Origin: Lachnospiraceae bacterium
GTDB lineage: Bacteria; Bacillota; Clostridia; Lachnospirales; Lachnospiraceae
Reading direction: 5' to 3'
Assembly (NCBI GenBank): GCA_910575005.1
Contig: CAJTCL010000001.1
Location: 62,001-126,000, forward strand
DNA: 64,000 nucleotides
Shown here: positions 32,040 to 51,200 of the stretch, one piece after another
How positions within the stretch are numbered: position 1 is the stretch's first letter
Layout of the letters: every line of letters begins with the position of its first letter
Translations under genes and position numbers: made by a program
The notes under the pieces: model-generated
Seen by the model: only the letters and a program-made list of their open reading frames with translations
Told to the model about the DNA's origin: nothing
Database searches by the model: none

Positions 32040-33128
32040 TCATAGTTCCTGTTCTTTTTTCTTTCCTAATTTCTGACTGTTCCTATATCTCCCAGCAATC
32101 TTGTCCTTTGCATCTTTTAGTTTCCCAAGCACAGAAGGTTTTCTCACTTCATTTACAGTTGGTGAAGCATCCAATATCTGGTTTGTATAGCTGATGGCTT
32201 TCTTCGGTCTGTCTGCTACATCCTGCACATTCTCATCCATACCTAATGCTTCTGATGGTTCTTTCTCATCCATATTTAGCAAAGTATTTAATTCAGACAG
32301 GCGTTTCATTTTCTCCGCCAATTCCTCTTCCTTTGCAAATGGCTTCTCCACTTCCTCTTTTGCTGTAGCAAGCTGTTGTTGTACAATTTCTAATTCCAGT
32401 TCTGATTCCGTGAGCTTCTTCTCAATCCCAGAAAGTGCATTGCTGATACGCTGCAAGTTTCCTAATGGATCTTTCCCTAATTCAATCTTGTAGCTGCACT
32501 GCCGCTTGATGGTCAGTTTGTAAACCTGGTTGAAACTGTCAAAATCAGAATATAGCTGGAACCCGCAGAACTCCCCAACCTGCCTGACTGCATCCACTGC
32601 CTGTAGCCCAGCACAGGCTGCAAGCAGTGCTGTTCCTGCTTCTTTTCGGTCTGTATAGGTTTTCTCGCCAATAATTATGGAGAAATCGTCTTTTTCCTTT
32701 TCTTTCTCTAACAATGGTTTCACCACTTCTGCATCTGCCCGCAAGCCTGCAATTCGTTCTTTCAATGCAGTAATTTTTATTGGGTAATTCCTAGCAATCT
32801 CTGTTTCTAGACGGTATTTCTGACTGGTATGGTTTGCCTTCAAAAGTTTTAGCTTGCTTACCTGAATGTCGAGATCCATCTTTTCTTTGATATTGGGATT
32901 ACCAGTAGCTAGAGCTTTGATTTCTGCATAACTTAGTGCTGTATCGTCCACATCCTCACAGGCTCGTACTGGCGATTTGCTTGTCATAATCTGACTGATG
33001 AATTTCTGCTTGTTCTCTAAAATCTGCCACATGTAGCTGTCGAATGTATTTTCGGTAACATAACGGTAGATCAGCACTTTGTCATTCTGATTCCCTTGCC
33101 GAAGAATCCGCCCTTCTTGTTGCTGAAG
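32040..33128 (-). pseudogene. Helicase/methyltransferase gene, 3' part (beyond the IME)
   Basis: Last segment of the giant helicase. It opens in frame with LQQQEGRILRQGN, the second half of SF2 helicase motif VI, then NDKVLIYRYVTENTFDSYMWQ, the standard SNF2-type ending, and a ~250-residue coiled coil. The IME inserted between the codon for Asp (GAT) and the Leu at 33128. Joined to 44979-45764 and 48298-54567 it completes a 2714-aa protein. As it stands it has only a poor GTG start (33077), so it is probably not made unless the IME excises. Confidence 0.85.
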
Positions 33129-34987
33129 ATCAGTCGGTCATTTTTTGCGGACAGTTCAATACATGCCATCCGTTTCTGCTCCCTGCTCCTGCGTTTGCTC
33201 TCGTTTGACTTCTCCCTCTGCATCTTCTTGGCGCAAACGGGACAATACTTTGATATGCCAGAGCCAGGGACGTATTCAACGCCGCACACTGTACAGCATT
33301 TAGCGGGCAACGCTGTCCACCGCTTTGTGGGTGTGATATGTAATTCACCGACAAAGCCGATGAATTTATAGTAAATCTTGATTTCCTGCCTAACCGTTCC
33401 GTCCGCTGACTTCTCACGCTCCGAAACAAGTATCTTTTCTATCAGCGCATTTATAACGGTTGCGTCCAGTTCCTTTAAGCCTTGGTAGTTACGGATAAGG
33501 GAGAGGAAGTCACGGATTCCCTGCGATTTCTCGTAGCTTTCATTAAGGGTTTCCGTTACCTCTTTTAATCTCGCTTCAATTTCAAGCTGTTCTTTCTGGT
33601 ATTTCCCCGACATCATCTCGAAATTCCGCTCGGTGATACGCTCCATGACCTTATCTTCGTAGAGAGCGTAAAACAGCCTGTCAAGCTCTGCAAGGCGTTT
33701 GTTCAGCTTCTTCCGTTCTTTCTCCATCGCCTTTGCCTTGCTCTGGTCTGTTTCCGTGAGCCGCTTTTCAATCGCCCTCACCGCCCGCTCGTCATTTACC
33801 GCCATATCCGCAAAATGGTTGATGTCGGCAAGCACGGCGTTGAATAAATCTCTTGCTTCTACGTTGTGTGAAGTACACACGTTCTTTCCGTTTTTGGCAT
33901 AATTATTACATGAATACTGTACGCAGTCGATAACGTCGGGGCGTTTTCTCCTGTTTGCACTCATTGTCCGCAGAGCAAAGCCGCAGTCTGCACACTTAAT
34001 AACGCCTGCAAATATATTCTCAAATCCCCCTGCGTTCCGCTCCCGTCTGCGGCTTGTCATAAGCTGTTGGACGGTATCAAATTCTTCTTGTGTGACTATG
34101 CCCTCATGGGTGTTGGGTATCACTTCCCAATCTTCGGGCAGCTTAGAGGGGCGTTTCTTACTTTTCATACTGACAGCAACACGCTTATAACCGACAAGGT
34201 TTCCCGCATAGATGGGGCTTCTTAAAATGTTCCTTACGCTGTTCTCACACCAGATATAACGACTATCCACATTATCACCAATGTGTCTTTCAAATGCTGT
34301 TTCTCCCCGCTCTGCCGCATAAGCAGCAGGGCATAAGATATGATGTTTGTTGATATATTTACAGATTTTAGCGATTCCGTTTCCTGCAAGTGCAAGGTCA
34401 AACATCTCCCTTACAATGTGTGCCACATTTTCATCTATCAATAGGTGATTGTGGTCGGCAGGGTCTTTGATATACCCGTAGGGCGCATACGTCCCCATGA
34501 ATTTCCCCTGCTGAAACCTCGCTCGGTACGCCGATTTTATCTTAACCGATATGTCGGCGGCATACATTTCGTTTAGGATGTTACGGAAAGGCGTGATGTC
34601 CATTGCCGATTTATTGAGCGTGTCTACGCCGTCATTGACCGCTATATACCTCACATCATGCTCTGGAAAAAAGACTTCCAGATATAATCCGCAGTCAAGG
34701 TAATTCCTACCCAATCTTGATAAATCCTTTGTAATCACGCAGTTTATCAGCCCGTTTTCAATATCTTTAATCATGTTCTGGAAGCTGGGTCTTTGAAAAT
34801 TCGTACCAGAATAACCGTCGTCCACATACGTTTTTGCTAAGTGCCAGCCCTGCTTTTTTACATAATCCGTAAGGATGGATTTCTGCGTGGCAATGCTCGC
34901 ACTCTCGTTTTCCGTGCCGTCGTCTTTAGACAAGCGGCAGTAAATGCCGACTTCATAAATCTGATTCCCCGTTTTTTTTCCTGCCAT
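33071..34987 (-). CDS. Large serine recombinase of the IME
   Basis: Integrates and excises the IME. The resolvase domain starts at once, with catalytic S20 in YCRLSKDDGTENESASIATQ, followed by DDGYSGTNFQRP and LSRLGRNYLDCG. Next come the recombinase domain (~170-280), a zinc-ribbon (FAGVIKCADCGFAL, later CNNYAKNGKNVC) and a long coiled coil. GGAGGAATCAAAGT precedes the ATG. A C-terminal cysteine cluster (CCTVCG, CPVCAKK) is extra. Residues from about 619 to the stop are encoded by the target gene beyond the junction; in the circular form the frame would end LM-stop at residue 620. Confidence 0.92.
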   Translation of the reverse strand: MAGKKTGNQIYEVGIYCRLSKDDGTENESASIATQKSILTDYVKKQGWHLAKTYVDDGYSGTNFQRPSFQNMIKDIENGLINCVITKDLSRLGRNYLDCGLYLEVFFPEHDVRYIAVNDGVDTLNKSAMDITPFRNILNEMYAADISVKIKSAYRARFQQGKFMGTYAPYGYIKDPADHNHLLIDENVAHIVREMFDLALAGNGIAKICKYINKHHILCPAAYAAERGETAFERHIGDNVDSRYIWCENSVRNILRSPIYAGNLVGYKRVAVSMKSKKRPSKLPEDWEVIPNTHEGIVTQEEFDTVQQLMTSRRRERNAGGFENIFAGVIKCADCGFALRTMSANRRKRPDVIDCVQYSCNNYAKNGKNVCTSHNVEARDLFNAVLADINHFADMAVNDERAVRAIEKRLTETDQSKAKAMEKERKKLNKRLAELDRLFYALYEDKVMERITERNFEMMSGKYQKEQLEIEARLKEVTETLNESYEKSQGIRDFLSLIRNYQGLKELDATVINALIEKILVSEREKSADGTVRQEIKIYYKFIGFVGELHITPTKRWTALPAKCCTVCGVEYVPGSGISKYCPVCAKKMQREKSNESKRRSREQKRMACIELSAKNDRLIFSNKKGGFFGKGIRMTKC

Positions 34988-35040
34988 ACTTTGATTCCTC
35001 CGTCTTTGTTTTACTGATTTCGTGTTCCATTGCGTACATT

Positions 35041-35232
35041 CTAAGCGGATATCCCCTCATTGTCGAAGGTGTCGCCCTCGGCAATCTTCCTGCGTATATC
35101 CTCGGAAATAATCGGGATAAACGCCTCCGCAATGGTCTGTGTGCCGACATATTCACGGCTGACAATCATCTGCACTGGCTGTCTTGCCACAATACGCTTT
35201 CTCTTTTTGTTCGCTTTCTTATCCTCGCCCAT
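35041..35232 (-). CDS. Small IME protein (63 aa), unknown
   Basis: Begins MGEDKKANKKRKRIVARQPV and ends RKIAEGDTFDNEGISA. The first 15 residues are very basic, the rest acidic. The family is common just upstream of recombinases in such elements, perhaps as an accessory or directionality factor. The start at 35230-35232 is preceded by AGGAAG. A longer frame from 35307 lacks a ribosome site. Function not known. Confidence 0.6.
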   Translation of the reverse strand: MGEDKKANKKRKRIVARQPVQMIVSREYVGTQTIAEAFIPIISEDIRRKIAEGDTFDNEGISA

Positions 35233-35303
35233 ACTCAAATCTTCCTTTCCAGACAGGGCAGGGGAGCGTCTGAAAACGTCCCAACCCTGCCAATCAGACA
35301 CAA

Positions 35304-35534
35304 TCAATCCCCGCTGTTTATCTTTTTCTGCAATGCTTTCAGGAGCGCAGCCGCTTCATCAGCGGTCAACGTGATTCCCTTTCCGCACTTCTCACGGTTG
35401 GGGGAAAAGCTGCGGATGTCGTATTTCGGCTCTTTCCCGTTCCATGAGATTAAGTTGATTTCCTTTGTATAGCCGCTTTCGCTCGTAGACAATACGGCGA
35501 TTTCCTTTACAATCTCATATTGAATAGCTTTCAT
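35304..35534 (-). CDS. YdbC/PC4-like ssDNA-binding protein
   Basis: A 76-aa protein. EIAVLSTSESGYTKEINLIS, then WNGKEPKYDIRSFSP and GKGITLTADEAAALLKAL match the YdbC family, which folds like the eukaryotic PC4 coactivator and binds single-stranded DNA. In an element with rolling-circle transfer and iteron replication it may coat exposed strands. The gene is in the leftward IME cluster with ParB and the recombinase. Confidence 0.8.
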   Translation of the reverse strand: MKAIQYEIVKEIAVLSTSESGYTKEINLISWNGKEPKYDIRSFSPNREKCGKGITLTADEAAALLKALQKKINSGD

Positions 35535-35600
35535 TTCCTGTCTTGCCTTTCTGCTTTTTTATCTGTCCAAAGTTTCTATTTACTGCCCGAAAAGAGAAGA

Positions 35601-36455
35601 TTAGCGGCTGTCCCTGTCCCGTTTCCTCTGTAATTCACGCTCCAACAGTTTGATGATAGTGTCCTCCATCTGCTTGGGCGTTGTCCCTTTCGGGAAGTAT
35701 TTCTTTAATCTCTCCATGCCGATTTTCACGGTTTCTTTCTGGTTTCCCTTTTCCTCCGTCATAATCGCAAAGATGGTGTCCATATCAAGCCGCCCGCTCT
35801 GGCTCAAGGTTTTCATCCGCTGTGCCTGTGAGAGTGAGGGCGTTGCTTCCTCGCTCTCCATTGTGGCGAATAGGTTTTCCTGCTCGTCTTTCTTCAAAAA
35901 AGACAGTTCCACCGCAGGCGTGAGGGCGATTTTCCCCTCGTCCACCATCTGCAAAATCGGCGGTATCAGTTCCGTCAAGCGGATAAACCTCTGCACGGTC
36001 ATCCTGCCAACGCCGAATCCCTGTGCCACTTTATCGTCCGTCCGCAACTTCGTCCCAACTTGTGACGAGGTTAAATCCGTGCGGAAGCCCTGCCGCTTCA
36101 TGGCTTCGGATTTCATCTTGTAGGCAAACGCCCGCTCCGATGGCAGGATATTTTCACGCTGTAAGTTGCTGTCCACAAGGGTGATGATGGCTCGGTCACG
36201 GTCTAAGGGCAGGACAAAAGCGGGGACTGTGTTTATCCCTGCAAGCTCGGAAGCACGGACACGCCGCTGTCCCGCAATGATTTCGTAGCCGTTCCCGTCC
36301 TCTTTCGGGCGTGTGATTATCGGCGTTACAATGCCAAACTCCTTAATGCTTTCCGCTAACTCTGACAGCGTTTCATCCTCCACCACATGGAAAGGGTTGT
36401 CGGGAAACGGGTATAAATCTGCTGTCTTTAATACCTTAAAATCCTGTTTCTTCAT
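35601..36455 (-). CDS. ParB/Spo0J-family protein
   Basis: A 284-aa protein. The ParB nuclease-like domain is at 1-100 (NPFHVVEDETLSELAESIKE; EIIAGQRRVRASELAG), followed by a helix-turn-helix region (GFGVGRMTVQRFIRLTELIP). The ParB CTP-binding motif GQRR is present. No ParA partner is encoded nearby, so it may control transcription or the origin rather than drive partition. It lies 8 bp from the MobV gene and is probably cotranscribed with it. Confidence 0.85.
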   Translation of the reverse strand: MKKQDFKVLKTADLYPFPDNPFHVVEDETLSELAESIKEFGIVTPIITRPKEDGNGYEIIAGQRRVRASELAGINTVPAFVLPLDRDRAIITLVDSNLQRENILPSERAFAYKMKSEAMKRQGFRTDLTSSQVGTKLRTDDKVAQGFGVGRMTVQRFIRLTELIPPILQMVDEGKIALTPAVELSFLKKDEQENLFATMESEEATPSLSQAQRMKTLSQSGRLDMDTIFAIMTEEKGNQKETVKIGMERLKKYFPKGTTPKQMEDTIIKLLERELQRKRDRDSR

Positions 36456-36463
36456 TCACGTTC

Positions 36464-37429
36464 CTACCTTTCTTTCGCTCTGTTCGGATTGCTTTTCTGT
36501 AATTCCTCTATCACTTCTGGCGGTATCTTTTTCAATAACTTTTCCATCTGCTGATTGGTTTTCTGCAATTCAAATATCCTCTGGTTTGTTTTCTGTACCT
36601 TTCGTTCCTGCTCGTACTTCTCATCACGCATACGCCCCGCATAGTCGGCTTCCTGCCCGATTCTCTCTTTCAAGCTGTCGATATACGCCTGCTGTTTGCC
36701 GATTTCCTTAGAGAATTTCTCCACGTCTGGAAGCCATGCGGAGAGCAGTTCTAACGCCTTATCTCTTTTTTTGCCTGCGTTAAAGGCGTTGATGTCGGAG
36801 AGGGCAGACACGATTTCCGCATACTGTTTATCCAGACTGCCTCCCAGCTTATAGAGCCATGTGGGGATGTGCTTCCGCTTCGTTTCCATTGAGGACTGCC
36901 CCCGTTCAAGCTGATTCCACCGTGCGGACATCCGCTCATGGTAGGCAGTCTGCCATTCGGATAGGGATTTCTGGTTGCCTAAAATAGACTTTGCTGACAG
37001 CTTGTTGTCTGGCGTAAGCGGCACAAAGCATAGGTGCATATGGGGCGTCCTCTCGTCCATATGGACGACTGCGGAGAGGATATTCTGCTTTCCCACACGC
37101 TCCGAAATAAAGTCAAGAGCCGTCTGGAAATACGCTTTTTGTTCTTCGGGCGGTAAGCTGTTCATAAATTCGGGCGAAGCTGTGATGAGCGTTTCCACCA
37201 TCATCACGCTGTCTTTTCTTACCTTACAGCCCGCTTCCTTTACCATTTGGTTTATCTCTTTTTTATAGGTGTACTTTGGCGGTGCTATGAGATGGTAATT
37301 GTTTTTAGAACGTTCCGTATCAATATCTGGATTGCTTTTATAGGCTTCTTTCTTCCGCTCGTTGTGGCGTTCACAAGCCGCAACGCCGCCTGCCTTGCGT
37401 TTCTGGAAACGCAGGATTGCATAGGGCAT
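36464..37429 (-). CDS. mobV: MobV-family relaxase (Pre/Mob)
   Basis: A 321-aa relaxase like pMV158 MobM. Motif I is HNERKKEAYKSNPDID, where the first His is the usual nucleophile or ligand in MobV enzymes. Motif III is HMDERTPHMHLCFVP, the metal-binding triad. The tail is a coiled coil (residues ~230-320). Start is ATG at 37427-37429 with GGAAGATTGACT; an extension upstream would use repeat DNA. A matching oriT with the pMV158-type nick word lies 214 bp upstream. It would let the IME transfer through another element's secretion system. Confidence 0.92.
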   Translation of the reverse strand: MPYAILRFQKRKAGGVAACERHNERKKEAYKSNPDIDTERSKNNYHLIAPPKYTYKKEINQMVKEAGCKVRKDSVMMVETLITASPEFMNSLPPEEQKAYFQTALDFISERVGKQNILSAVVHMDERTPHMHLCFVPLTPDNKLSAKSILGNQKSLSEWQTAYHERMSARWNQLERGQSSMETKRKHIPTWLYKLGGSLDKQYAEIVSALSDINAFNAGKKRDKALELLSAWLPDVEKFSKEIGKQQAYIDSLKERIGQEADYAGRMRDEKYEQERKVQKTNQRIFELQKTNQQMEKLLKKIPPEVIEELQKSNPNRAKER

Positions 37430-37468
37430 AGTCAATCTTCCTTTCTTCGGCGGGTAATCTTCCAAAGG

Positions 37469-37966
37469 GTGACGGTTGGTGACGGTGGTGACGGTGTTTT
37501 TGGGATACCCCCACGGAAGCCGCTAACTGTCACCGCACATTCTTCCATCCGAAGCCGCAAGGCAGAGGATGGGCAGGGCGTAAGCCCTGCTTTAAGGGAG
37601 TCCAGAGGGAACGTCTGGCACACGACTTTGCAGGGCAAAGTGTAGTGTGTTACACCCTGTAAACGCAGTCGGAAAAATAGGAAGATTTTTCTGACCGCAG
37701 GGGTGGCTTTACGAGCCGAAAAGGGCGAGCAAAGCCCACGCCTGCACTTTGCGTTTACGGGGTGTTCTCCCGTAGGGCAGAACCGCCGATTTTACATACA
37801 TTTGCTATGACGGTGACAGCAGCAGGGGGTATCCTAAAAACACCGTCACGACCGTCACCGACCGTCACGCATAAGCCAGATCCGCCGTTTTCACATACTT
37901 CTTAGGTGACAGTGACAGCGGCAGGGGGTATCCCAAAAACACCGTCACCATCGTCACTATCGTCAC
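37469..37966. repeat. Iteron array in three modules: probable replication origin
   Basis: Module A (37469-37512) has GTGACGG three times at 10- and 9-bp spacing, then TGTTTTTGGGATACCCCC. Modules B (37825-37868) and C (37924-37966) carry the inverse: GGGGGTATCCYAAAAACA followed by three CCGTCAC-type repeats. A faces B and C. Module C lies inside the 3' end of the RepA-like gene and encodes its last residues (DGVFGIPPAAVTVT). Spaced iterons beside a RepA-type helicase are typical of plasmid-like origins, so the excised IME may replicate. Confidence 0.75.
37625..37652 (+). other. oriT: oriT of pMV158 (MobV) type
   Basis: ACTTTGC-AGG-GCAAAGT (37625-37641) forms a hairpin, followed at once by TAGTGTG/TTA (37643-37652). 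This is the nick word of MobM from pMV158, where cleavage is between G and T, here 37649/37650. Both the sequence and its place upstream of a MobV relaxase agree. Confidence 0.8.
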
Positions 37967-38942
37967 CGTCCGTATCCTCCTGCCTTGCAAGGGAAATCAG
38001 CCTGTGGCTGTTCTTGCGGCTGAAATCATAACGGATATGGTTTTCAAGCAGGAAGTCAAGGCGGTACTCGTTCATCCATTTTGTCAAGACATTCGCCGCT
38101 GTTTCTGTTTCCCCCAGAGCCTCCAATAACTCTGTCGCTGTGCCAGTCCATTCCTCTTTGCCCTGCATGAAATCCACCAACCGAAAAAGGACGTCTGGTA
38201 TCGCTTCTTTGGCAATCTGTTCCTGCTCTTTCCTTTCCACCAGTTCCCAACTGCAATCACGGAAGCGGAGCGTGAACTCCTGATAGGGCGTGTCCCTGCC
38301 TGTCACATACAGCTTTGCGGCATTGGACGCACGGCTTTCCTGTTCCAGTACAAAGGTTGCGTCCGCACTCCCCGTCAATCCCGTCGTGCCAGACACTTTG
38401 TTGAACACGTCGCTGTCGTTCTGCTTTCGGATGTGGTGTACGACGATGACCGCAAGAGAATGCCTGTCGGCAAAGTCTTTGATAAGGGAGATGTCCCCGT
38501 AATCGCTTGCATAAGCGTTGTCTTTGGATGCGGTGCGGACTTTCTGCAAGGTGTCAATTACAATGAGCCTGCTGTCGGGGTATTCTTTCAAATAGTCCTC
38601 TAACTGCACGATAAGACCGTCTGACAGCTTATCGCTTGCCACCGCAAAATGAAGCCGCCCGCTTGCTTCGTCCGTCAATCGGAACAGCCTGTCTTGGATG
38701 CGGCAGAACGTATCTTCAAGGCAGAGGTAAAGCACATCGCCCTCCTGCGTGGGTATATCCCATAAGGGGATTCCCTGCGACACGCAGAGGCAGAGTTTTA
38801 ACATGAGCCAGCTCTTGCCGATTTTCTGTGAGCCGCAGAACAGGATTAAGCCCGTGGGTATCAGACCGTCCACCACAAAGGACGGCTTTTCAAGCGGCTC
38901 ATAAAGGAGCGTGTCAGCGTTGACTGTCTGAAGTTTCTGCAT
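37902..38942 (-). CDS. RepA-like hexameric ATPase (AAA_25)
   Basis: A 346-aa RecA-fold ATPase similar to plasmid RepA/RSF1010-type helicases. Walker A is GSQKIGKS near residue 37 (LILFCGSQKIGKSWLML). Walker B is RLIVIDTLQKVR near 120, with the sensor IVVHHIRKQ following. It probably unwinds the iteron origin that overlaps its own 3' end. The start is the ATG at 38940-38942, with AAGGAGGAATCCC; a frame reaching to 39179 runs into the upstream sigma-like gene and lacks a ribosome site. The last 15 residues derive from an iteron module. Confidence 0.8.
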   Translation of the reverse strand: MQKLQTVNADTLLYEPLEKPSFVVDGLIPTGLILFCGSQKIGKSWLMLKLCLCVSQGIPLWDIPTQEGDVLYLCLEDTFCRIQDRLFRLTDEASGRLHFAVASDKLSDGLIVQLEDYLKEYPDSRLIVIDTLQKVRTASKDNAYASDYGDISLIKDFADRHSLAVIVVHHIRKQNDSDVFNKVSGTTGLTGSADATFVLEQESRASNAAKLYVTGRDTPYQEFTLRFRDCSWELVERKEQEQIAKEAIPDVLFRLVDFMQGKEEWTGTATELLEALGETETAANVLTKWMNEYRLDFLLENHIRYDFSRKNSHRLISLARQEDTDGDDSDDGDGVFGIPPAAVTVT

Positions 38943-39094
38943 GGGATTCCTCCTTTCGGGCGGTGTCTTTGGTTTTGTTGTGCATAGGCGTTGACCTCCT
39001 AAAATAGATTTACTCCCACGAAGAGAAGTGAGAGTATGTAATGCCGCCAGTCCCACGCCGATAAAAAGCGGATTTCTTTTTCGGATGGTAGCGG

Positions 39095-39568
39095 TCACAG
39101 TTGGAGATACTTCCTCATTTCTGCCTTGACCTTTTCCCTTGCAACAGAAACTGACTTCTGGACAGCGGAAGCGGTGCAATGCTCCATCTCCCCGATTTGG
39201 TAAAAGTTGAAATCATACTCGTAATAGAGCAGGAAACGCCGCCTCTGTATCTCTGGCAGTCGGGCAACCGCTTTAAAAAACATTTCATTCCTTTCTTTCT
39301 CAATCATTCTTTCATCAAGCGTTTTAGGCACTCGCAAAGCACGTCTGTAAAGCGTTTCGTCCCACACCTCGTTAAACTCCCTGTGCCGCTGGTTCCATTG
39401 CTGAAGGTTTCTGTTCCTCCTTTCCATCTGCCGAAATTCAAAAAAGAGTTTCTCGGACACTTCTATCTCGTGGTGTTCTCCCTGCCCGTCCTTAAAGCTG
39501 ATAGAATACCTTGCGCCGCTTTCCGTGGATTCCTCCCGAAGCGTGTATGCCTTTGCCTTATATGCCAT
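39095..39568 (-). CDS. Sigma-70-like protein, IME copy 1
   Basis: A 157-aa protein. The first 60 residues are specific to this group (YSISFKDGQGEHHEIEVSEK). Residues ~105-157 carry region-4-like helices (ARLPEIQRRRFLLYYEYDFN; QIGEMEHCTASAVQKSV). GGAGGAAAGCAGG precedes the ATG. First of three related small regulators in a row, likely to control expression of the recombination or replication genes. It has no region 2, so it is not a full sigma factor. Confidence 0.7.
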   Translation of the reverse strand: MAYKAKAYTLREESTESGARYSISFKDGQGEHHEIEVSEKLFFEFRQMERRNRNLQQWNQRHREFNEVWDETLYRRALRVPKTLDERMIEKERNEMFFKAVARLPEIQRRRFLLYYEYDFNFYQIGEMEHCTASAVQKSVSVAREKVKAEMRKYLQL

Positions 39569-39650
39569 CCTGCTTTCCTCCTGCTAAAAAGTAGGAGAGA
39601 GTTTCTCTCCCCACCCGATAGCCCATAGGAAAGCAGGATATATGAGACGC

Positions 39651-40076
39651 TTATAAAATTTTCCGCAGCTTCTTCCGCAGATGGTTTAACCTTGCATAAA
39701 CAGCCCCTGCCGTTAAATGCACAAGCGGCGCAATCTCCTTAGTGGAATAGCCCTGCATTTTCAGCAGGACGATTTGTAACGTGCGTTTATCTACCGTGAT
39801 TAAGGCAAGGTACAGAGTTTCATTCTCAATCTCGTCCAGTAAATCAGCAACAGACCTTACCTCCGCCTGCTTCTCCCTGTCCGCCATGCCCTCAAGGTAT
39901 TCACCAAAGTCACTTGCCCATCGGTAAAACCGCCTGTTGGAATTAAAATCTGCCCTGTCGTCTGTGCGGATTTGCTCAATGACAGCTTCATCAACTCCGC
40001 ACTCACGCAGAACCTTTTCCTCGGCTTCTTTCCAGATGCGCCATTTCCTGTCCTCCCGTCCGTGGTTGTATGCCAT
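39651..40076 (-). CDS. Sigma-70-like protein, IME copy 2
   Basis: A 141-aa protein starting MAYNHGREDRKWRIWKEAEE. The C-terminal 60 residues have the region 4 pattern (IVLLKMQGYSTKEIAPLVHL; AGAVYARLNHLRKKL). Start at 40074-40076 with GGAGGAAATAAG; the extra codons upstream are untranslated. It forms a cluster with the sigma-like genes on both sides, each about 75-85 bp apart. Confidence 0.7.
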   Translation of the reverse strand: MAYNHGREDRKWRIWKEAEEKVLRECGVDEAVIEQIRTDDRADFNSNRRFYRWASDFGEYLEGMADREKQAEVRSVADLLDEIENETLYLALITVDKRTLQIVLLKMQGYSTKEIAPLVHLTAGAVYARLNHLRKKLRKIL

Positions 40077-40161
40077 CTTATTTCCTCCAATCGAAATTGA
40101 TTGAGAGGGCAGGAAAAGCCCCCTCATTTTCCCAAAGGAAAAAACAAGGGGGCTGAACGCC

Positions 40162-40677
40162 TTAAATTTTGTTTTCCATTATCTTTCTCAGTTTCGTAAG
40201 GATTTTGGCTTTGCGCTTGTTCACAACGTTCTGTGTCACGCCCAACCGCAACCCGACTTCCCTCTCGGAAAGTTCTTCAAAGAAGATTGCGTTTATCAAT
40301 GCCTGCTCACTACCCGACAATAAGGGCAGGGCGGCTTTCAGCCTGTCTACCATCACCGCACGGACAACAGTTTCCGCAACGTCCACCGCTTCATCCACAA
40401 CGAAATCAAGCACATTCCCCTCGCTGTCCGTAAATCCCTCCAATGACAGCAACTTGTGGTTCGTGTCCAGTTTTTTCAGATAACGCCACCGCTCTTTGTC
40501 CTTGTAAAAATCTGTGTACTGTTCCCGCACAACCTCAAGCAGACAGCCTTGCACTGGGATAAACAGCTTGTCCATGTAACTCTGGTCGGATTCCCTGCGG
40601 CGGCAGAAATCTTTATAAGACAGCTCCACATAGCCGCCATTCTCTTTGATATATATTTTTCTTGGTGCATATTTCAC
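40162..40677 (-). CDS. Sigma-70-like protein, IME copy 3
   Basis: A 171-aa protein from a GTG at 40675-40677 after GGGAGGTACTTAAG (KYAPRKIYIKENGGYVELSY). It has a long middle region and a terminal region-4-like part (LLSGSEQALINAIFFEELSE; REVGLRLGVTQNVVNKRKAK). A typical Tn4451/Tn916-style regulator. Starting at the next ATG would remove most of the conserved N-terminus. First gene transcribed in the sigma cluster. Confidence 0.7.
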   Translation of the reverse strand: MKYAPRKIYIKENGGYVELSYKDFCRRRESDQSYMDKLFIPVQGCLLEVVREQYTDFYKDKERWRYLKKLDTNHKLLSLEGFTDSEGNVLDFVVDEAVDVAETVVRAVMVDRLKAALPLLSGSEQALINAIFFEELSEREVGLRLGVTQNVVNKRKAKILTKLRKIMENKI

Positions 40678-40981
40678 CTTAAGTACCTCCCATCTGAATT
40701 TTTGAAATGCTAAAATCCAGATGAAGAGGGTGGGGAGCGGCAATGAACGCCAGAAACAGCCCTACGGCACAATCTGATAAAAAACGACAAAAGAAAAACC
40801 GCAAAGTCTCTGTGACCTTTACGGTTATAGGAATTTATAATTCTGTTGTATAGAGATTCTACTTCTACCTTTACGGTGAGAGGTAGCGTTGTATGGGCAG
40901 AGATTTTTTTAACAGGCTTCCTGCCCTTCCCCGATATGTTATGTATAGATTAACTCTGTGTTGCATGAACAGATAGATGAC

Positions 40982-41104
40982 TGCCCGAAAAAAGGACATA
41001 AAAAAATCCCTCCAAACTTTAAAACAGGTCTGGAGAGTGTCTGTTAAGTCTTTTCGGGCATAGCAATACCGCCCACCACACACCGTTTTTTTATATGGTG
41101 GGCG
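40982..41104. repeat. Two stem-loops between cargo and sigma cluster
   Basis: TGCCCGAAAA (40982-40991) pairs with TTTTCGGGCA (41051-41060) across 59 nt, and CGCCCACCA (41070-41078) pairs with TGGTGGGCG (41096-41104) around an A/T-rich loop. They separate the NUDIX-to-AraC cargo block from the sigma-like cluster and probably end the cargo transcript. The rest of 40678-41206 holds no gene. Confidence 0.55.
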
Positions 41105-41206
41105 TTCGCCTTAAAACCTTATGAAATGAAAGAGAGCCAATAAACTGTGATTTTATTTCACATGTTCATCGGCTCTGCGTCTTTGCGTCTGGCTCTTTCT
41201 AAAATA

Positions 41207-41827
41207 CTAATCAAAAAATGTTTTCCAGTTTTCAGACTGATATGCTTCAAAGCACATCTTTATCTGTTCCTCATTATTTTTTTCTGTTGCAAGGATAGGC
41301 AACTCGTTCATCCCAAAGTAGTTGCTCGATATGGTTTCTATATTGGATTTAAACTCACCGCCTATGACTGAACATAACACAAATATTTTGCACACCTTAT
41401 AGGCATAAACAGGTAAATTATGCTTTTCCCTGTCCTGTACGGCAATAACCATATCAGCCATTACATCTAAACCCGCTTCTTCTTTTACCTCTTTCATCAC
41501 ATTTTCTTTGACTGAAACATGAACGTCAACCCAACCTCCAGGCAATGACCATGTTCCATTTTTCTCTTGCACAAGCAAAATTTTATCATTTTGAAAAACA
41601 GCAGCACGACAGTCAATTTTAGGTGTTTGATACCCAATTTCGTTACAAAATAGATTTTTGACCTTATCCATTGAAATATCTGTTTTATAAGAAATCATTT
41701 CTGCTGCAATTTCTCTAATTCTTTCATAGCGTTCTTTATCAAAAACATCCTTTCCATAGAAAATTCCTGCCTGTGCCAAACTTTGTAATTCTACTGCCCA
41801 TTGCAGCCATTTTTCATTATTATGCAT
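41207..41827 (-). CDS. NUDIX hydrolase (with YjhB-type N-terminal domain)
   Basis: A 206-aa enzyme. Residues 1-60 are a helical N-terminal hydrolase domain (WLQWAVELQSLAQAGIFYG). Residues ~70-190 are the NUDIX fold, with the box LPGGWVDVHVSVKENVMKEV followed by KEEAGL. The second glutamate of the canonical box is Val here, but the EExG core is present. Such enzymes cleave nucleotide diphosphate derivatives, often ADP-ribose or a modified nucleotide. Start ATG after GGGAGGACGC. Last gene of the IME cargo block. Confidence 0.85.
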   Translation of the reverse strand: MHNNEKWLQWAVELQSLAQAGIFYGKDVFDKERYERIREIAAEMISYKTDISMDKVKNLFCNEIGYQTPKIDCRAAVFQNDKILLVQEKNGTWSLPGGWVDVHVSVKENVMKEVKEEAGLDVMADMVIAVQDREKHNLPVYAYKVCKIFVLCSVIGGEFKSNIETISSNYFGMNELPILATEKNNEEQIKMCFEAYQSENWKTFFD

Positions 41828-41858
41828 GCGTCCTCCCTATCTGCCAGTTAATATCATT

Positions 41859-42056
41859 TCAATAATTAACCGCTTTGTATGTATGAATATTAGGTTCTCT
41901 GACAATACTGATTTGCATATTTTTTGCTTCAATCAAACTTTCCTTTCTGCATTTGGGACAATAAAGAGGATAATTTATTAAGACAGTATCCTCTCTAATT
42001 TTATTACGTGTCTTGCCGCCACAAATGGGACATAAAATCCACTTTTCTATATTCAA
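41859..42056 (-). CDS. Cysteine-rich KTR-domain protein
   Basis: A 65-aa protein with two CxxC pairs (CPICGGKTRNKIRED; CPKCRKESLIEA), a zinc ribbon of the KTR family found beside Tn916-type cargo genes. Start is TTG with GAGGTGG eight bases before it. Function unknown; probably a nucleic-acid or metal-binding helper. Confidence 0.75.
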   Translation of the reverse strand: MNIEKWILCPICGGKTRNKIREDTVLINYPLYCPKCRKESLIEAKNMQISIVREPNIHTYKAVNY

Positions 42057-42097
42057 AAAACCACCTCTTTGCTCAATTATTTCCCAATCATTCCCGA

Positions 42098-42718
42098 CTA
42101 TTTTATAACACCGAGTAAATCGTTTGGAATTTTTATGAAGAAATTAGCTTCCAACTCTCTGGTGTGGCTTCCCCATATAGCCAATGCAAAATCAACTTCT
42201 GCATTTTTAGCACATAAGCTGTCATATTTGCTATCTCCGATATATAGTATTTGCTCGTTACATGCCCCAGAAATTTCTATATACTTTAACAAAGGTTCGG
42301 GGGATGGTTTATGCTCTGTTGTGTCATCGGCACAAATAATCGTCTTAAAATAATGGTTCAGCCCAAATCTATCAAAATCATCTTTAAACTCCGCTTTTGT
42401 TTTTGAAGTGACAATTCCGATTGAATAACCGCATTCCGATAGGCTGCTTAATAATTCTGGGATTCCGTCATAAAGAGTTATTGTATTGCTGTATTTTTTT
42501 ATGTTTTCTTCCCATAGCTTCAGAGCCAACTGGATATTATTGATTTTCAACCGCCTTAATGCATCTTCTCCCGTGATTCCCATTACAAACAACAATTGCT
42601 GAATAGGCACTTTTTCATGTATGCATTTTTCTAATGTGTCTTGTAAAGAGTGTAAGATTGCGTACTCTGTGTTGATAAGAGTTCCATCAATATCAAAAAC
42701 AATATGCTGATATTTCAT
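42098..42718 (-). CDS. HAD-superfamily hydrolase
   Basis: A 206-aa HAD-IA phosphatase like phosphoglycolate phosphatase. Motif I is FDIDGTLINT, motif II VTSKTK, motif III the Lys in EHKPSPEPLLKYI, motif IV IGDSKYDS. It dephosphorylates a small metabolite, identity not visible. Its ATG overlaps the stop of the acetyltransferase gene (TAATG), so the two are coupled. Part of the IME cargo block. Confidence 0.88.
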   Translation of the reverse strand: MKYQHIVFDIDGTLINTEYAILHSLQDTLEKCIHEKVPIQQLLFVMGITGEDALRRLKINNIQLALKLWEENIKKYSNTITLYDGIPELLSSLSECGYSIGIVTSKTKAEFKDDFDRFGLNHYFKTIICADDTTEHKPSPEPLLKYIEISGACNEQILYIGDSKYDSLCAKNAEVDFALAIWGSHTRELEANFFIKIPNDLLGVIK

Positions 42719-43308
42719 TATGCATTTCCTCTTTCCTCCACAAAACAGCGGATAACTTTACATGGATTCCCAACAGCAACACAATTTGCGGGGATGGAAT
42801 GGGTAACAACACTCCCTGCTCCAATCACACTATTTTCGCCTATTGTTACGCCTGCCAAAATAATACTTCCCCCTCCAATCCATACATTGTCCTGTATTTT
42901 AATGGAACGGGCATAAGTTCTGAAAAATGTCGTCCCAGTTTCTTCCCAATCTGAAACGAAACGCTCCTGTGGCAAAACAGGATGGGAAGATGTATAAAAC
43001 TGAACATTAGACGCTATCAATACCCGACTGCCAATCCGTATGGGCTTATTATCCACAAATGTACAATTCATATTTATAACGACATCATCACCAAGAAATA
43101 TATTTTTTCCATAGTCACAATGAAGCGGGACATCAATGGCAGCATTTCTCCCAACAGCTCCCAACAGTTCTTTCAAAATCTCATTTTTCCTTTTTGTATC
43201 ATCATAATCCGTAAAATAATATTCTCTTGTAAGTTTCCTTGCATTGGAAATGATATGCAAAGTCTCCTTATCTGCGGTTTCCAAAAAATCTTTGGCTTCG
43301 TAATACAT
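42718..43308 (-). CDS. Sugar O-acetyltransferase (maltose/galactoside type)
   Basis: A 196-aa hexapeptide-repeat acetyltransferase. It begins MYYEAKDFLETADKETLHII, which resembles the Maa N-terminal domain, followed by left-handed beta-helix turns (GKNIFLGDDVVINMNCTFVD; IKIQDNVWIGGGSIILAG; VTIGENSVIGAGSVVT). The catalytic His is in YTSSHPVLP. Acceptor sugar not predictable. The start at 43306-43308 has AAGGAGAAAGGT ahead; a longer frame exists upstream without one. It is coupled to the HAD hydrolase gene. Confidence 0.88.
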   Translation of the reverse strand: MYYEAKDFLETADKETLHIISNARKLTREYYFTDYDDTKRKNEILKELLGAVGRNAAIDVPLHCDYGKNIFLGDDVVINMNCTFVDNKPIRIGSRVLIASNVQFYTSSHPVLPQERFVSDWEETGTTFFRTYARSIKIQDNVWIGGGSIILAGVTIGENSVIGAGSVVTHSIPANCVAVGNPCKVIRCFVEERGNA

Positions 43309-43383
43309 ACCTTTCTCCTTAAAATGATATAACAAAATCCGTGCCATATATCATTATAACGCAGAATTTTTTATTTATCTATT

Positions 43384-44307
43384 TTATTTCGGACATAAGA
43401 TATGACTATCCTGCCATTTCTTCCGATATTCTATGGGAGTGCAGTTTTGGTATTCACGGAAAATCTTGCTAAAATAGCTGCTGTTTCCTAACCCGCAGGC
43501 ATGTCCAATGTCTGTAATTGTGTCCTGCCCATTTATGAGCATTTCACAAGCTTCCTGTAAACGGTAACTTTGGATATACTTTGTGGGCGTTGTATGCAAA
43601 TAGCTTTGAAACAGCCTGAAGCATTCCCTTTCGCTTAGACATGCAACTGCGGCAAGTTCTGAAACCGCAATTTTATCCGCAAAATGTTCGTGTATGTAAA
43701 TTAACATCTTCTTAAGTCTTTCGTCATTTTTGTCATATTTTCCTTTCCCATCAAATGAAGCAGAAAACAGTCCAAAAAGTTTTAGCCATATTTGGGACAG
43801 GGCTTCCCTTATTTTTATCTCATATCCAATGTCATTCTCACATAAGGTAAAAGTCTGTTTTATCAAATTCAGTATATCTGCATGTATAAAATTATCGGGG
43901 CGAAAAACATATATTTCAATCTGGGGATTTGTAGTAATTGGCATAACATACTTTTTCTCAATTTTACTCCCATAGTTTCCAGAAATGAGAGCCGTATCAA
44001 AAATATGCAGCCGCTGTATATTTTTTTCTGTCCGAGATACAGCCTTAGTCATGTGAAGGACATTTGAATTAATAAAGCCCCCAGAGCCTGCCGAAAAGGA
44101 CAATTTCTTTTTCGGGGTATAATATTCCAATGTTCCGCTCTCCATATAAAAAAGCTCTATTGCCTTATGCCAATGCCACGGTGCCGAACGCCCAACATAT
44201 TTGTCAAGTTCTGCATTAGACGCAATATACGGAAATTCAGATTCAAAATCGGGCAGTAATTCTTCTTTGCTTCCCGCATGAAATTCAAGTTTATATACAT
44301 TCTTCAT
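43384..44307 (-). CDS. AraC-family transcriptional regulator
   Basis: A 307-aa protein. An N-terminal cupin binds the signal (WHWHKAIELFYMESGTLEYY), and two C-terminal helix-turn-helices bind DNA (AVSELAAVACLSERECFRLF; TITDIGHACGLGNSSYFSKI), ending in the usual REYQNCTPIEYRK. It probably activates the acetyltransferase-HAD-NUDIX genes downstream in response to a sugar-like compound. The ATG at 44305-44307 has AGAGGAATCTTGT before it. It is AT-rich compared with the recombinase/RepA part, suggesting separate acquisition of this cargo. Confidence 0.88.
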   Translation of the reverse strand: MKNVYKLEFHAGSKEELLPDFESEFPYIASNAELDKYVGRSAPWHWHKAIELFYMESGTLEYYTPKKKLSFSAGSGGFINSNVLHMTKAVSRTEKNIQRLHIFDTALISGNYGSKIEKKYVMPITTNPQIEIYVFRPDNFIHADILNLIKQTFTLCENDIGYEIKIREALSQIWLKLFGLFSASFDGKGKYDKNDERLKKMLIYIHEHFADKIAVSELAAVACLSERECFRLFQSYLHTTPTKYIQSYRLQEACEMLINGQDTITDIGHACGLGNSSYFSKIFREYQNCTPIEYRKKWQDSHILCPK

Positions 44308-44548
44308 ACAAGATTCCTCTTTCACATTGTATCATTCAGTCTGTTTTGAGATTTATTTTTCTTATCAGCAGATTTCTCATTTTTGAGGGAAAAGCTATAC
44401 ACGATATAGTATAGTTGTTTCAATGAATTGTATCAATAGCATAGACAGCTCTCTGCCAATTTATTTGAAAATATCATATATGCACTGAAAACAGATTGTT
44501 GATTCTAAACAGTGATGGCAGAGCTTTTACACTCTGCCGCTTCGTTAT

Positions 44549-44923
44549 TTATGCGTAGATCATTTCTTTCTCTACAATCTCTCTCGCACACGCCCTTATG
44601 TTACCTAGCCGCCCTGTCCATTCTAAGGCGTTTTCTTCCTTTAGGCGTTCCGTTATGCCCTGTGCCTGTTTCATGCCCTCTATGAGCCTTTCAAAGCGTT
44701 CCTGTGCCTGTCTGTCAATGTCGGCAAGGTAAGTATTCAGCCTGCCGCTTGTGAGTAGATTGGTGTATGTAACCTTGCGGTACTGCTTCAGATAGTCCAG
44801 ATGCCGCTGTCCCCATGTGCCTATCGGCTGTTCTTCTTCGGCGGGTACAGTCAAGCACGGTAGTAAGTAATCGCCTTGCCGTTCATATTTGCCGCCCAGT
44901 TCCTCAAAAATCGTCTTTGCCAT
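44549..44923 (-). CDS. tnpV: TnpV-family transposon protein (IME copy)
   Basis: A 124-aa member of the TnpV family known from Tn4451. It carries GGKYERQGDYLLPCL, WGQRHLDYLKQYRKVTYTNL, LTSGRLNTYLADIDRQAQER and the ending ACAREIVEKEMIYA. Function is unknown. GGAGGTAACAGACA precedes the ATG, which overlaps by 20 nt the end of the interrupted helicase frame, so helicase ribosomes could feed its translation. A diverged second TnpV is encoded inside the helicase gene at 53376-53717. Confidence 0.85.
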   Translation of the reverse strand: MAKTIFEELGGKYERQGDYLLPCLTVPAEEEQPIGTWGQRHLDYLKQYRKVTYTNLLTSGRLNTYLADIDRQAQERFERLIEGMKQAQGITERLKEENALEWTGRLGNIRACAREIVEKEMIYA

Positions 44924-44978
44924 TGTCTGTTACCTCCACATTCTTTTTTATTTTGAATGTCCGCAAAATCCGTCCTAC

Positions 44979-45764
44979 ATCTGCAGGTTTCCAGGGCGAA
45001 TCCAGGTGGTGTAGGGCAATCAATCTATCCTGAATATTTGTCCCAGCACCTAGCTTTGGCGTGGAACCAAGAAGGATACGTACCTGTCCAGAACGTACCT
45101 TTGAAAATAATTCTGCTTTTTTTGTTTCGGTTCCAGATTCATGAATAAATGCCACTTCCTCTCTAGGAATTCCCTTCGCAATCAGCTTTTCCCGCACATC
45201 ATCATAGACGTTGAATGTGCCATCATTTTTTGGTGTGGACAAATCACAGAAAATTAATTGTGTGCCTTTGTCGGCAGAAGTCTTTTTCCAAATGTCAAAG
45301 CTATTATTTACACAACGATTGACCTTGCTTTCCTCTGCATCTGGCAACATGTCATTGATCAATCGTTGATCCAGGGCGCATTTCCTTCCATCGTTGGTTA
45401 TTTTCAACATGTTATCGCATGATGGGTCTACGTTTCCGGCACGGACAATCTCTGCCCGTTCTGCAAAAGAGCTGACTAATTCCTGCTGTTCTTCACTTGG
45501 TTTTAGTACTTCATTAATGTATTCCACTTCGGGAACTGGAAGATTTAGCATATCTGCTGTCTGGATGTCTGCACTTTCCTTAAATAATGAAATCAGTTCT
45601 GGAAGATTAAAAAACCGAGCAAATCTTGTCTTTGCTCGGTAGCCGCTGCCCTCTGGTGACAACTCGACGCTTGTGACAGTTTCCCCAAAGGCTGCCGCCC
45701 AGGAATCAAAATGCCCCAGACCCATCTTCTGTAAAGTGTCATATTGCAGGTAACGCATAATTGT
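44979..45764 (-). CDS. Helicase/methyltransferase gene, middle part (exon 2)
   Basis: Second segment of the giant helicase, between the group II intron and the IME. It opens TIMRYLQYDTLQKMGLGHFD and contains ETVTSVELSPEGSGY, the LIFCDLSTPK motif and LGSTPKLGAGTNIQDRLIAL (motif V), ending PWKPAD just before motif VI. The open frame runs past the junction into the IME for 25 more codons (VGRILRTFKIKKN onward, stop at 44904-44906). Unless the IME leaves, the protein ends here without motif VI and should lack ATPase-coupled activity. Made only after splicing of the intron. Confidence 0.88.
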
Positions 45765-48297: not shown

Positions 48298-51200
48298 ATA
48301 TAATTCCACCATACTATTCGACACGGGAGTTCCAGTTGCAAAGGTGACACCTTTACCTCCGGTAAGCTCATCCAAGTATCGACACTTCATAAACATATCA
48401 GAGCTTTTCTGTGCGTCTGTCTGTGCAATTCCAGCTACATTGCGCATCTTTGTGTATAAAAACATATTTTTGTAGTTATGGCTTTCATCCACAAATAGTC
48501 TGTCCACACCTAACTGCTCAAATGTCACCACATCGTCTTTGCGGGTTTGGTCATTGAGCCTTGCAAGCCTTGATTCCAGTGTTTTTTTCGTCCTTTCCAT
48601 CTGTTTCACTGTGTAACGTGTGCCATCTTCCGCTGAAAGCTCCTCAATAGCTGCTGTAATGTCATTTATCTGCTGTTCAATAGTTGCAATCTGTCGCTCC
48701 TTAGAAAGCGGAATCCGCTCAAACTGACTATGCCCGATAATGACAGCATCGTAATTCCCTGTTGCAATACGAGAACAAAACTTCTTGCGGTTGGCGGGTT
48801 CAAAATCCTTTTTCGTAGCCACTAGAACATTTGCTCCTGGATAGAGGCGCAAAAAATCACTGCCCCACTGTTCGGTCAGATGGTTAGGCACAACATAAAG
48901 ATTTTTTTGTGCCAGCCCCAACCTTCGGCTCTCCATTCCGGCTGCAATCATCTGGAAAGTCTTGCCAGCTCCCACACAATGTGCAAGCAGTGTGTTGTTT
49001 CCATATAGTATATGCGCCACTGCATTTTTTTGGTGGGGCATCAATGTAATTTCCGGCGTCATACCTACAAACTGGATATGGCTCCCGTCGTATTCACGGG
49101 GACGGATACTATTGAATAAATTATTGTATTTCCTACACAAATCCTCCCGTCGGTCAATGTCTCGAAAAATCCATTCCTTGAAGGCTTCCTTTATCATTTC
49201 TTGTTTCTGCTGTGCAATCATGGTTTCTTTTTTATTCAGGACACGCTTTTCCCTGCCATCCTCCGTGACTGTATCAAAAATCTTCGTGTCACGCAGATTC
49301 AACGCATCCTCTAGTAAACGATAACCATTTGCCCGCTGTGTCCCATAGGTGGATGTGACAAGGGAATTTCCATAAGAATTCAAGTTTTTCCCAGTTATAT
49401 TCCACTGACCGTTGATTTTTGCATATTTCACATCAATCTGGTTCCCTAAGAAATGTTTCGGTGTATGGAACAATTCCCCCATAAACTCTGTAATATAGGT
49501 TGCATCTACCCAGGTTGCCCCAAGCCGCACCTCAATTTCAGATGCCTCCAGGTCTTTCGGCTGCACCCGTTCCAGCGCTTGCACATTGATATTATATTCT
49601 GGGTGATTCTCTGTAAACTGTCTTGCAATTGTAAGCTTCTCACGGACGTTGCCAGATAAGTATTCATCGGAAGCCTCCCACTGGTCTGTCAGGGGATTTT
49701 TAAAGATTACCCCCTCCAATTCCTTTGTAATTTCCGCTTCTGTCTTGCCAGATAACTTTGCCATAAATGGCACATCTACCTTTGCACGCTCCCCGATAGA
49801 CACGGCGAGAGCTTCACTGGCGGTATCTACACTTGTCACTGGCACTGCCTTACGAATGGTACGTTTTGTAAAAATATCTGCCTTACGTTTTAAATTCCCT
49901 TCTTCGTCTACTAATTCTAAAGATGATAGTAAGCAATAACTACTATCCTGCGAAAATGCTTTCCGGTTGGCATTGCTACTGATTAAGCCATACTTTGCGG
50001 TAAAGTGATCATACTGCATATTTAATTTCTGCTGCAGCACAGCTACTTTTGCATCACTCCCATCTTCCATCTGGCACTGCAAAAGTTCCTGTGTTAGATT
50101 CCGCAATTCTATCATACCAAGCACACGCTCTGTCGTTAAAGTGGGTAGCTCCATTAAATTCATAATGGAATTTTCCCGATAATACACGTTTCCATCCACA
50201 TTGGCAAAGCTAAAATTCTTTATGGAAGGGTCTGCCGGAATGGATGTTATTGTGTCCTCTAACTCCGATTCTTCCAGATTTATCTCTATAATTGTCCCCT
50301 GAATATGTTTTACCGCTTCTTTCAATTGTTCTGAGAGGGTAGTCCCCTCGATTGGTTTTACTGTAATTTCCTGTTTGCCGTATTGTGTACTTTCCGTGCT
50401 AAATATCCCAAGCACCATCTCAGGATGTTCTACGAAATAGGAATTGATGGTATATCCTTCCGGCGTTGTGCCAAGATCCACCCAATCCGGCTGTTCTATG
50501 GATGCCCGATCGCGTTTCTGAAAGAATAAAATATCCGCCACTACACTTGTCCCAGCATTTCTCTGGAACGCATTATTAGGAAGGCGAATTGCCCCAAGTA
50601 AATCTGCACGGTTAGCAATGTACTGACGCACGTTGGAACTTTGCTTGTCCATCGTGCCACTGGATGTCACTACCGCTACCACACCGCCCGGACGCACCAA
50701 ATCCAAAGATTTCGCTATAAAATAATCATGTATCATAAAATTGTGGCGGTCATATCTGCGATCTGCTACTTTATAAGCACCAAAAGGGACATTTCCAATT
50801 ACACAGTCAAAAAAACTGTCTGGGTATGTGGTAGTTTCAAATCCCTGCACAGAAATAGTATTTTTCTGGTAAAGTTGCTTTGCAATCTTCCCAGAGATGC
50901 TGTCAAGTTCCACGCCATACATTCTTAACCCATCCATAGATTCTGGAACAAGTCCCATGAAATTCCCAATTCCACAGGACGGCTCCAACACGTTGCTCTG
51001 CTGTAATCCCAGATTGCCCAATGCTTCATACATTGCCTTGATAACGGTGGGAGAAGTATAAAACGCATTGAGGGTGGATGCCCTTGCTTGCTTGTATTCC
51101 TCTGGTGTCAGCGCTGATTTCAGTTCTGTATACTCCGCCGCCCATGCTTCATTCTTTTCATCAAATGCTGCTGAGATACCACCCCATCCAACGAACCGTG

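Follow-up and report, generated by a model that had tools for sequence, protein, structure and literature searches.

The IME_Class_6 kind of integrative mobilizable element (IME) occupies the snf2 gene of streptococcal integrative and conjugative elements (ICEs) of the Tn5252 family, and includes IME_Spy2096_SNF2, the 'tet(O) fragment' of ICESp2905 and the SNF2/PPI IMEs of Streptococcus suis (PMC5357655, PMC5704250, PMC7168690, PMC9815147, PMC8525962). Elements with a serine integrase, MobV, RepA and ParB have been reported in the SNF2 gene (PMC5704250), an 11-bp repeat, TTTTGCGGACA, has been described for IME_Class_6 (PMC9815147, PMC8525962), and SNF2 was the commonest IME target across 400 S. 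suis genomes (PMC12479173). Integrases of this class are assigned to the Ser_3 cluster (40 % identity). The reason why snf2 is a preferred site of such resistance-spreading cargoes was described as unclear in 2022 (PMC9815147). The 11,850-bp IME analysed here is located in a stretch of 64,000 nucleotides, hereafter called the window, from a Lachnospiraceae bacterium (assembly GCA_910575005.1), which corresponds to positions 62001-126000 of contig CAJTCL010000001.1 (C1) in a genome of 4.29 Mb and 88 contigs. It is a further member of the IME_Class_6 kind, with which it has in common a large serine integrase, MobV, ParB, TnpV, the TTTTGCGGACA arms and an SNF2 helicase target, whereas it differs from the streptococcal elements in its cargo, in which no resistance gene is recognised, in its host, probably of the gut Clostridia to judge by relatives, and in the distant ICE helicase that it has entered. 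The exact codon of insertion, a dyad of target bases, a count of other sites and variants of the core are added here to the description of the class.

Three other described systems are comparable. The Tn1549_COG4646 IMEs of S. suis, one of which has MobV, are likewise inserted in the COG4646/helicase gene of Tn1549-type ICEs, and their sites are given there to the level of the gene (PMC7168690, PMC12479173); the COG4646 label for the helicase is taken from these papers. Tn4451 with TnpX also combines a serine recombinase, a MobV relaxase and GA at the target, and is listed with numerous GA sites, the likeness being one of description only (PMC5704250). Tn1806-like ICEs have serine integrases which were shown by mating to enter the snf2 gene of an ICE, but unlike the IME each of them is a complete ICE, has triple integrases and uses different repeats, TGGG/GGGA (PMC12942858). 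The reading we prefer for the window, at a probability of about 0.88, is that the SNF2-type helicase gene of a Gram-positive ICE has been entered by an IME_Class_6-type element, and that the integrase of this element pairs a symmetric attP with an attB dyad at GA.

The insertion in the helicase gene

A long ICE-type helicase gene extends on the minus strand from 54567 down to 32040 and is interrupted twice, by a group II intron and by the IME (33130..44979, minus strand, counting one copy of the GA/TC core). The upstream part of the gene (48298..54567) has Pfam matches to Eco57I-like and ResIII domains and a match to the SNF2-related family below the cut-off. The middle part (44982..45764), aligned to an intact homologue on contig C4 of the same genome, ends ...PWKPA before the core, and the downstream part (32040..33129), also placed by homologue alignment, follows the core of an Asp codon as ...LQQQEGRILRQGN. 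In the orientation of the gene, the upstream flank P-W-K-P-A and the downstream flank D-L-Q-Q-Q-E-G-R-I-L-R-Q-G-N are in a single frame.

Two uninterrupted homologues of the same genome, on contigs C4 and C19, match both flanks with a DNA identity of 71-91 %, that on C4 aligning to window positions 32781-33113 and 45198-45254 and that on C19 to 32805-33116 and 45288-45653. Extrapolated from these alignments, positions 33128 and 44979 are adjacent bases in both homologues, with no base gained or lost, and the empty sites read PWRPSD-IEQQEGRILRQGN. The claim of the first-pass annotation that deletion of the element on paper restores the gene is therefore borne out, and neither homologue lacks similarity on one side. 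No near-identical uninterrupted copy of this ICE's own helicase was found at E 1e-60 in 348 genomes, in which the best relatives had 73 % DNA identity. On the intact C4 protein, the Pfam domain Helicase_C (residues 3029-3133, E 4.2e-5) ends on the insertion stretch; matches to RapA structures cover the ATPase part, and their alignment over the motif VI segment is not significant. Because the empty sites are contiguous and Helicase_C ends at this place, the crossover is assigned to the Asp codon at the start of the extended motif VI. The first-pass annotation had placed it within motif VI itself, which holds for the extended motif, the Asp codon preceding the classical QxxGRxxRxGN by three codons.

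Both element ends have the same construction. The integrase-side end (33130..33153, minus strand) consists of the core TC (33130-33131), 11 nt and the arm TTTTGCGGACA (33143-33153), and the opposite end (44958..44981, minus strand) of the arm TGTCCGCAAAA (44958-44968), 11 nt and the core TC (44980-44981), so that the 11-bp inverted repeat TTTTGCGGACA is present at both. The junctions are as first described, and the arms, reported earlier at 10-11 nt inside them, are separated from the core by exactly 11 nt on both sides; the limits given there are one base off the core. GAT, which had been given weight as common to both junctions, was rejected as the core, since other insertions, such as that on contig C8 of the same genome, have only GA in common and the third base is coincidental here. 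A 2-bp core and a symmetric attP are both present, as in large serine integrase systems. Overall, the observation made in the first-pass annotation is confirmed and its interpretation is partly supported.

The upstream half of the helicase reads into the element as ...PAD-VGRILRTFK followed by a stop (44904-44981), an echo of motif VI. This is treated as a coincidence, because little signal appears in the non-helicase sites at the positions that correspond to those of the helicase.

Sites used by related elements and their shared bases

Related insertions were surveyed in 91 loci, made up of the best 80 of 147 genome-contig relatives, eight viral-contig relatives and three copies from the own genome. 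The 24-nt integrase-side end was present in 90 of these 91 loci with close integrase relatives, without mismatch in 81 and with 1-4 mismatches in nine, and this recurrence argues that arms and core are not due to chance. The opposite end was found upstream in 50 loci (45 mismatch-free). After seven loci had been left out (L047, in which no end was found, and L050, L064, L088, L104, L118 and L099, with a poor end, no flank or mismatched cores), 84 were classified: 47 are inserted at the motif VI codon and 37 elsewhere, a proportion which is not a population frequency because the genome-contig set was the best 80 of 147. The suggestion that other ICE helicases might have insertions at the same codon was thus confirmed repeatedly.

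Assignment to motif VI was made by the downstream flank in 46 loci and by the upstream flank only in L085. Both flanks could be read for 25 motif VI loci, and a helicase was present on both sides in 23; the exceptions are L102, in which the 3' end of a group II intron lies immediately upstream of the IME insertion, and L085, which has non-helicase DNA downstream. L098 was classified as non-helicase by its downstream flank, which equals that of L085, the locus with a helicase as its upstream flank. Among the surveyed hosts are Streptococcus, Enterococcus, Veillonella and Blautia. The exact element end is joined to the same codon in a plasmid of Enterococcus faecalis and in an S. suis record which is annotated as phage and has an 'SNF2 family protein' next to its recombinase; the match to an S. 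suis record of this description had 85 % DNA identity.

The window genome itself has two more IME copies, with integrases 90 % and 86 % identical to that of the window. One, on contig C15, occupies the same codon in a second ICE helicase, whose best segment is 57 % identical, and the other, on C8 (L037), sits in a parB-like gene recognised by translation, with the same parB flank as L079, L095 and L099, and carries a ribosomal protection protein of the TetM/TetW/TetO/TetS family (L037 8798-10726). The genome has 27 matches to the window integrase, many 30-43 % identical and several on C1, which suggests that the region is rich in nested elements. In a second sample the exact element end was present in 18 of 250 genomes of the family, including the own genome, and five of 18 loci outside the own genome were at motif VI; one flank of this sample (L150) is identical to that of the excluded L118.

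The non-helicase sites share a dyad, GnnC-N4-GA-N4-GnnC, around the GA core. In unique non-helicase flanks G-8 was present in 20/23, C-5 in 18/23, G+5 in 27/36 and C+8 in 27/36, the parB insertions on C8, L079 and L095 being separate unique flanks in these base counts, with one of them kept for the matrix. At least three of the four dyad bases occurred in 22 of 23 unique two-flank non-helicase sites, compared with 3.1 % of 32,963 control GA positions, drawn from one strand of these loci at 100 to 6,000 bases into their downstream flanks. Nine new non-helicase downstream flanks from the second sample had G+5 in seven and C+8 in eight. When the element ends are read as attP, they have the same four dyad bases at the same distances, with the outer arms at 12-22. 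One further, weaker position per side, C-14 (12/23) and G+14 (21/36) in the non-helicase flanks, may be matched with C-19/G+19 of attP; this would fit a zinc ribbon binding 5 bp nearer the core in attB, since in large serine integrases the zinc-ribbon signal is about 5 bp closer to the core in attB than in attP (PMC3783163).

At the helicase sites the dyad coincides with the codons CGn, CCn, GAy, GAr and CAr in R-P-x-D-x-E-Q. Of the unique flanks at motif VI, 22/22 have C-5, 37/37 C+8, 33/37 G+5 and 15/22 G-8, the last of these being lost where Lys replaces Arg. No fewer than three of the dyad bases were present in each of the 36 uninterrupted helicase sites (some seen twice), in which the codon at the core was GAT in 21, GAC in ten, AGT in three and TGC and GAG in one each. 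The first-pass claim that the element targets a sequence conserved for enzyme function accordingly stands in so far as the same codon recurs in both samples with the shared bases on conserved codons; the target is not exclusive, as shown by the 37 insertions elsewhere.

On the reading we prefer, a 46-bp attP (arm, 11 nt, GA, 11 nt, arm) would recombine with an attB of the form GnnC-N4-GA-N4-GnnC by strand exchange at GA, the integrase being predicted to contact the dyad bases. The helicase dyad would be provided by the codons R(CGn) P(CCn) x D(GAy) x E(GAr) Q(CAr), and its position on conserved codons would let the site outlast most synonymous drift. Helicases with Cys (TGy) would be used by relatives with a TG core. 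The ICE would serve as a vehicle, on which the element may ride as passive cargo or from which it may excise and be mobilised by its own relaxase.

Several results weigh against this reading. Of the four dyad bases only two are present at the window's own site, which has A at -8 (Lys codon) and C at +5 (Gln codon), and two of the nine new non-helicase flanks lack G+5, one of them lacking both bases. A matrix built from the non-helicase sites ranks motif VI 26th of 2,488 and 14th of 2,182 GA positions in two ICE stretches; with such moderate ranks the short dyad alone fails to explain the motif VI preference, and either the integrase reads further bases that these sites do not bring out, or the count is raised by survival on ICEs. 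A circle or tandem junction was found neither in viral contigs (0 exact) nor in 398 genomes (0 at up to two mismatches), and the IME in a published S. suis ICE was not seen to excise (PMC7168690).

The motif VI excess could instead reflect mostly survival and sampling, many GA dyads being used and the copies in ICE helicases being spread by ICEs at little cost to the cell. The matrix ranks agree with this, as does a stretch of integrase that is identical in 38 of 90 rows: the 35 of these loci that were classified include 12 at motif VI and 23 elsewhere, so one integrase uses both kinds of site. Against it, many divergent helicases have been entered at one and the same base pair (37 unique downstream flanks), and the five motif VI loci of the second sample came from a search of the family by the element end alone. 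We regard survival and sampling as the main cause of the excess as a serious possibility, though one that falls short of even odds.

Four motif VI loci (L051, L052, L054 and L056; 4/47) have a TG core with ends otherwise within one mismatch, and are inserted in helicases with Cys (TGC or TGT) in place of Asp; the core is GA in the other 43 motif VI loci and in all 37 loci elsewhere. L064, excluded from the counts, has a TG core at another site. The agreement of TG core and Cys codon is partly built in, because core and codon are the same letters, and the independent evidence is that TG ends exist and that uninterrupted TGC helicases exist (on contig C27 of the own genome and in L167). Grouping the five TG-core rows, a set defined after inspection of the data, as one clade was rejected by the approximately unbiased (AU) test (p = 0.0066) on a tree with few firm branches; the well supported branches force just one change of the TG label, and four changes were counted compared with 3.7 in shuffles. 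Repeated switching of the core from GA to TG is thus only suggested by these sequence comparisons. A more speculative and rather unlikely extension would be co-evolution of passenger and vehicle at one codon, in which the integrase reads bases that are hard to change, helicases in which Cys or Ser has replaced the Asp evade elements with a GA core, and part of the elements have followed by way of a TG core, perhaps repeatedly.

No published dyad or codon explanation of the site was found in the literature searched, with most subscription journals outside its scope, and nothing on this gene was found in PMC6907783. A dyad that matches the codons of R-P-x-D-x-E-Q offers a testable partial answer to the question of the snf2 preference, suggests which conjugative elements can be entered and sets the question of targeting apart from that of whether the helicase is needed for transfer. 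Natural GA/TG core variants among close relatives may also be of interest to serine integrase research.

Consequences for the ICE

It was proposed in 2017 that such IMEs excise before conjugation and thereby restore the gene (PMC5357655), and the first-pass annotation likewise held the conjugation gene to be inactive until excision. The element would then be helicase-specific and would switch off a conjugation gene, blocking ICE transfer until it excised; the disruption of the gene and the fit of both flanks to an exact empty site count in favour. Published matings speak otherwise. In one of them, the S. suis ICE already mentioned, which has its IME in snf2, passed to Streptococcus thermophilus at 2x10^-3 and was retransferred, no excision of the IME being observed; mating with an S. 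suis recipient gave no transfer (PMC7168690). Transconjugants were also obtained, at low frequency, with ICESsuYS3 and ICESsuYS34, for both of which an IME within snf2 is listed, and with ICESsuYS388, whose snf2 is intact (PMC9815147); for these IMEs the comparison is at the level of the snf2 gene. Since ICEs with an IME in snf2 transferred, one of them without detected excision, the idea of excision before conjugation is weakened, and the claim of inactivity is not supported. Together with the 37 of 84 insertions located elsewhere, this makes a conjugation switch improbable. The simplest reading takes the helicase site as a docking place on the vehicle, widespread and conserved yet dispensable.

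A classical transposon with the inverted repeats as its ends, to which the inverted 11-bp arms near both ends might point, can be practically dismissed, as the arms are placed symmetrically about a 2-nt core at a distance of 11 nt, a target duplication beyond that core is not seen and the recombinase is a large serine integrase.

Group II introns and gene content of the locus

The other interruption of the helicase gene is a group II intron (45765..48297, minus strand), which starts GTGCG after ...MVELY and is matched by Rfam RF00029 at 45765-45832; its 5' limit and the exon limit were read from the sequence alongside the C4 homologue. The intron reverse transcriptase (45848-47674, minus strand) matches TIGR04416 just below the cut-off. 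One helicase gene thus contains one splicing and one non-splicing insertion. Group II introns have been described at the WRPxDxx motif of an ICE helicase (PMC12479173); like the IME they enter the same stretch of the same gene, and unlike it they are retrotransposing ribozymes which are spliced from RNA.

Nine further loci (L182-L185 and L188-L192, from genomes G028, G046 and G119) contain helicases broken by group II introns, as identified with Rfam, either at motif VI or close to it, or some 35 residues beyond. In G028 an intron 3' end directly precedes three helicase fragments, in each case just before K/R-P-x-D, and a fourth fragment breaks off after PW at the start of an intron, which places these introns within about 10 nt of the IME site. 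G046 has one intron near motif VI, and the introns of G119 are about 35 residues beyond the motif VI site. A helicase break at the later place in G067 had no intron in the extracted stretch, and none was seen in L193. Two further reverse transcriptase matches (RVT_1) were observed, at window positions 62405-64000 and in L129 (1735-3438), the latter with a maturase domain.

The genes of the IME are all on the minus strand. The large serine integrase (33071..34987) has the Pfam domains Resolvase, Recombinase, zinc ribbon and DUF4368. Without a stop inside the element, its frame continues into the target gene (33071-33131), so that the last residues come from the target gene and the end of the protein varies by site. 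It is followed by a ParB-like protein (35601..36455, by domain search), a MobV relaxase of the Mob_Pre family (36464..37465, Pfam PF01076, with NF041497 above the cut-off) and an AAA_25 ATPase (37902..39179, Pfam), which may be called 'RepA-like' by analogy with a table in PMC5704250. Three small regulators of the sigma-70 region 4 type (Pfam) are found at 39095-39568, 39651-40127 and 40162-40743, the middle one just under the cut-off.

The cargo, identified by domain search, consists of a NUDIX hydrolase (41207-41827), a HAD phosphatase (42098-42718), a hexapeptide acetyltransferase (42718-43347) and an AraC regulator (43384-44325). No resistance model reached its cut-off for the cargo proteins (41207..44325) among the best 25 families per protein. 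TnpV (Pfam PF14198) is encoded at 44549..44923, and a second TnpV open reading frame (ORF; 53376-53744) lies within the long helicase ORF, sharing its strand but using a different frame. A Tn916-type integrase at window positions 296-1537 is apparently split into two ORFs, 971-1537 and 296-961, and the host ICE may therefore be decayed.

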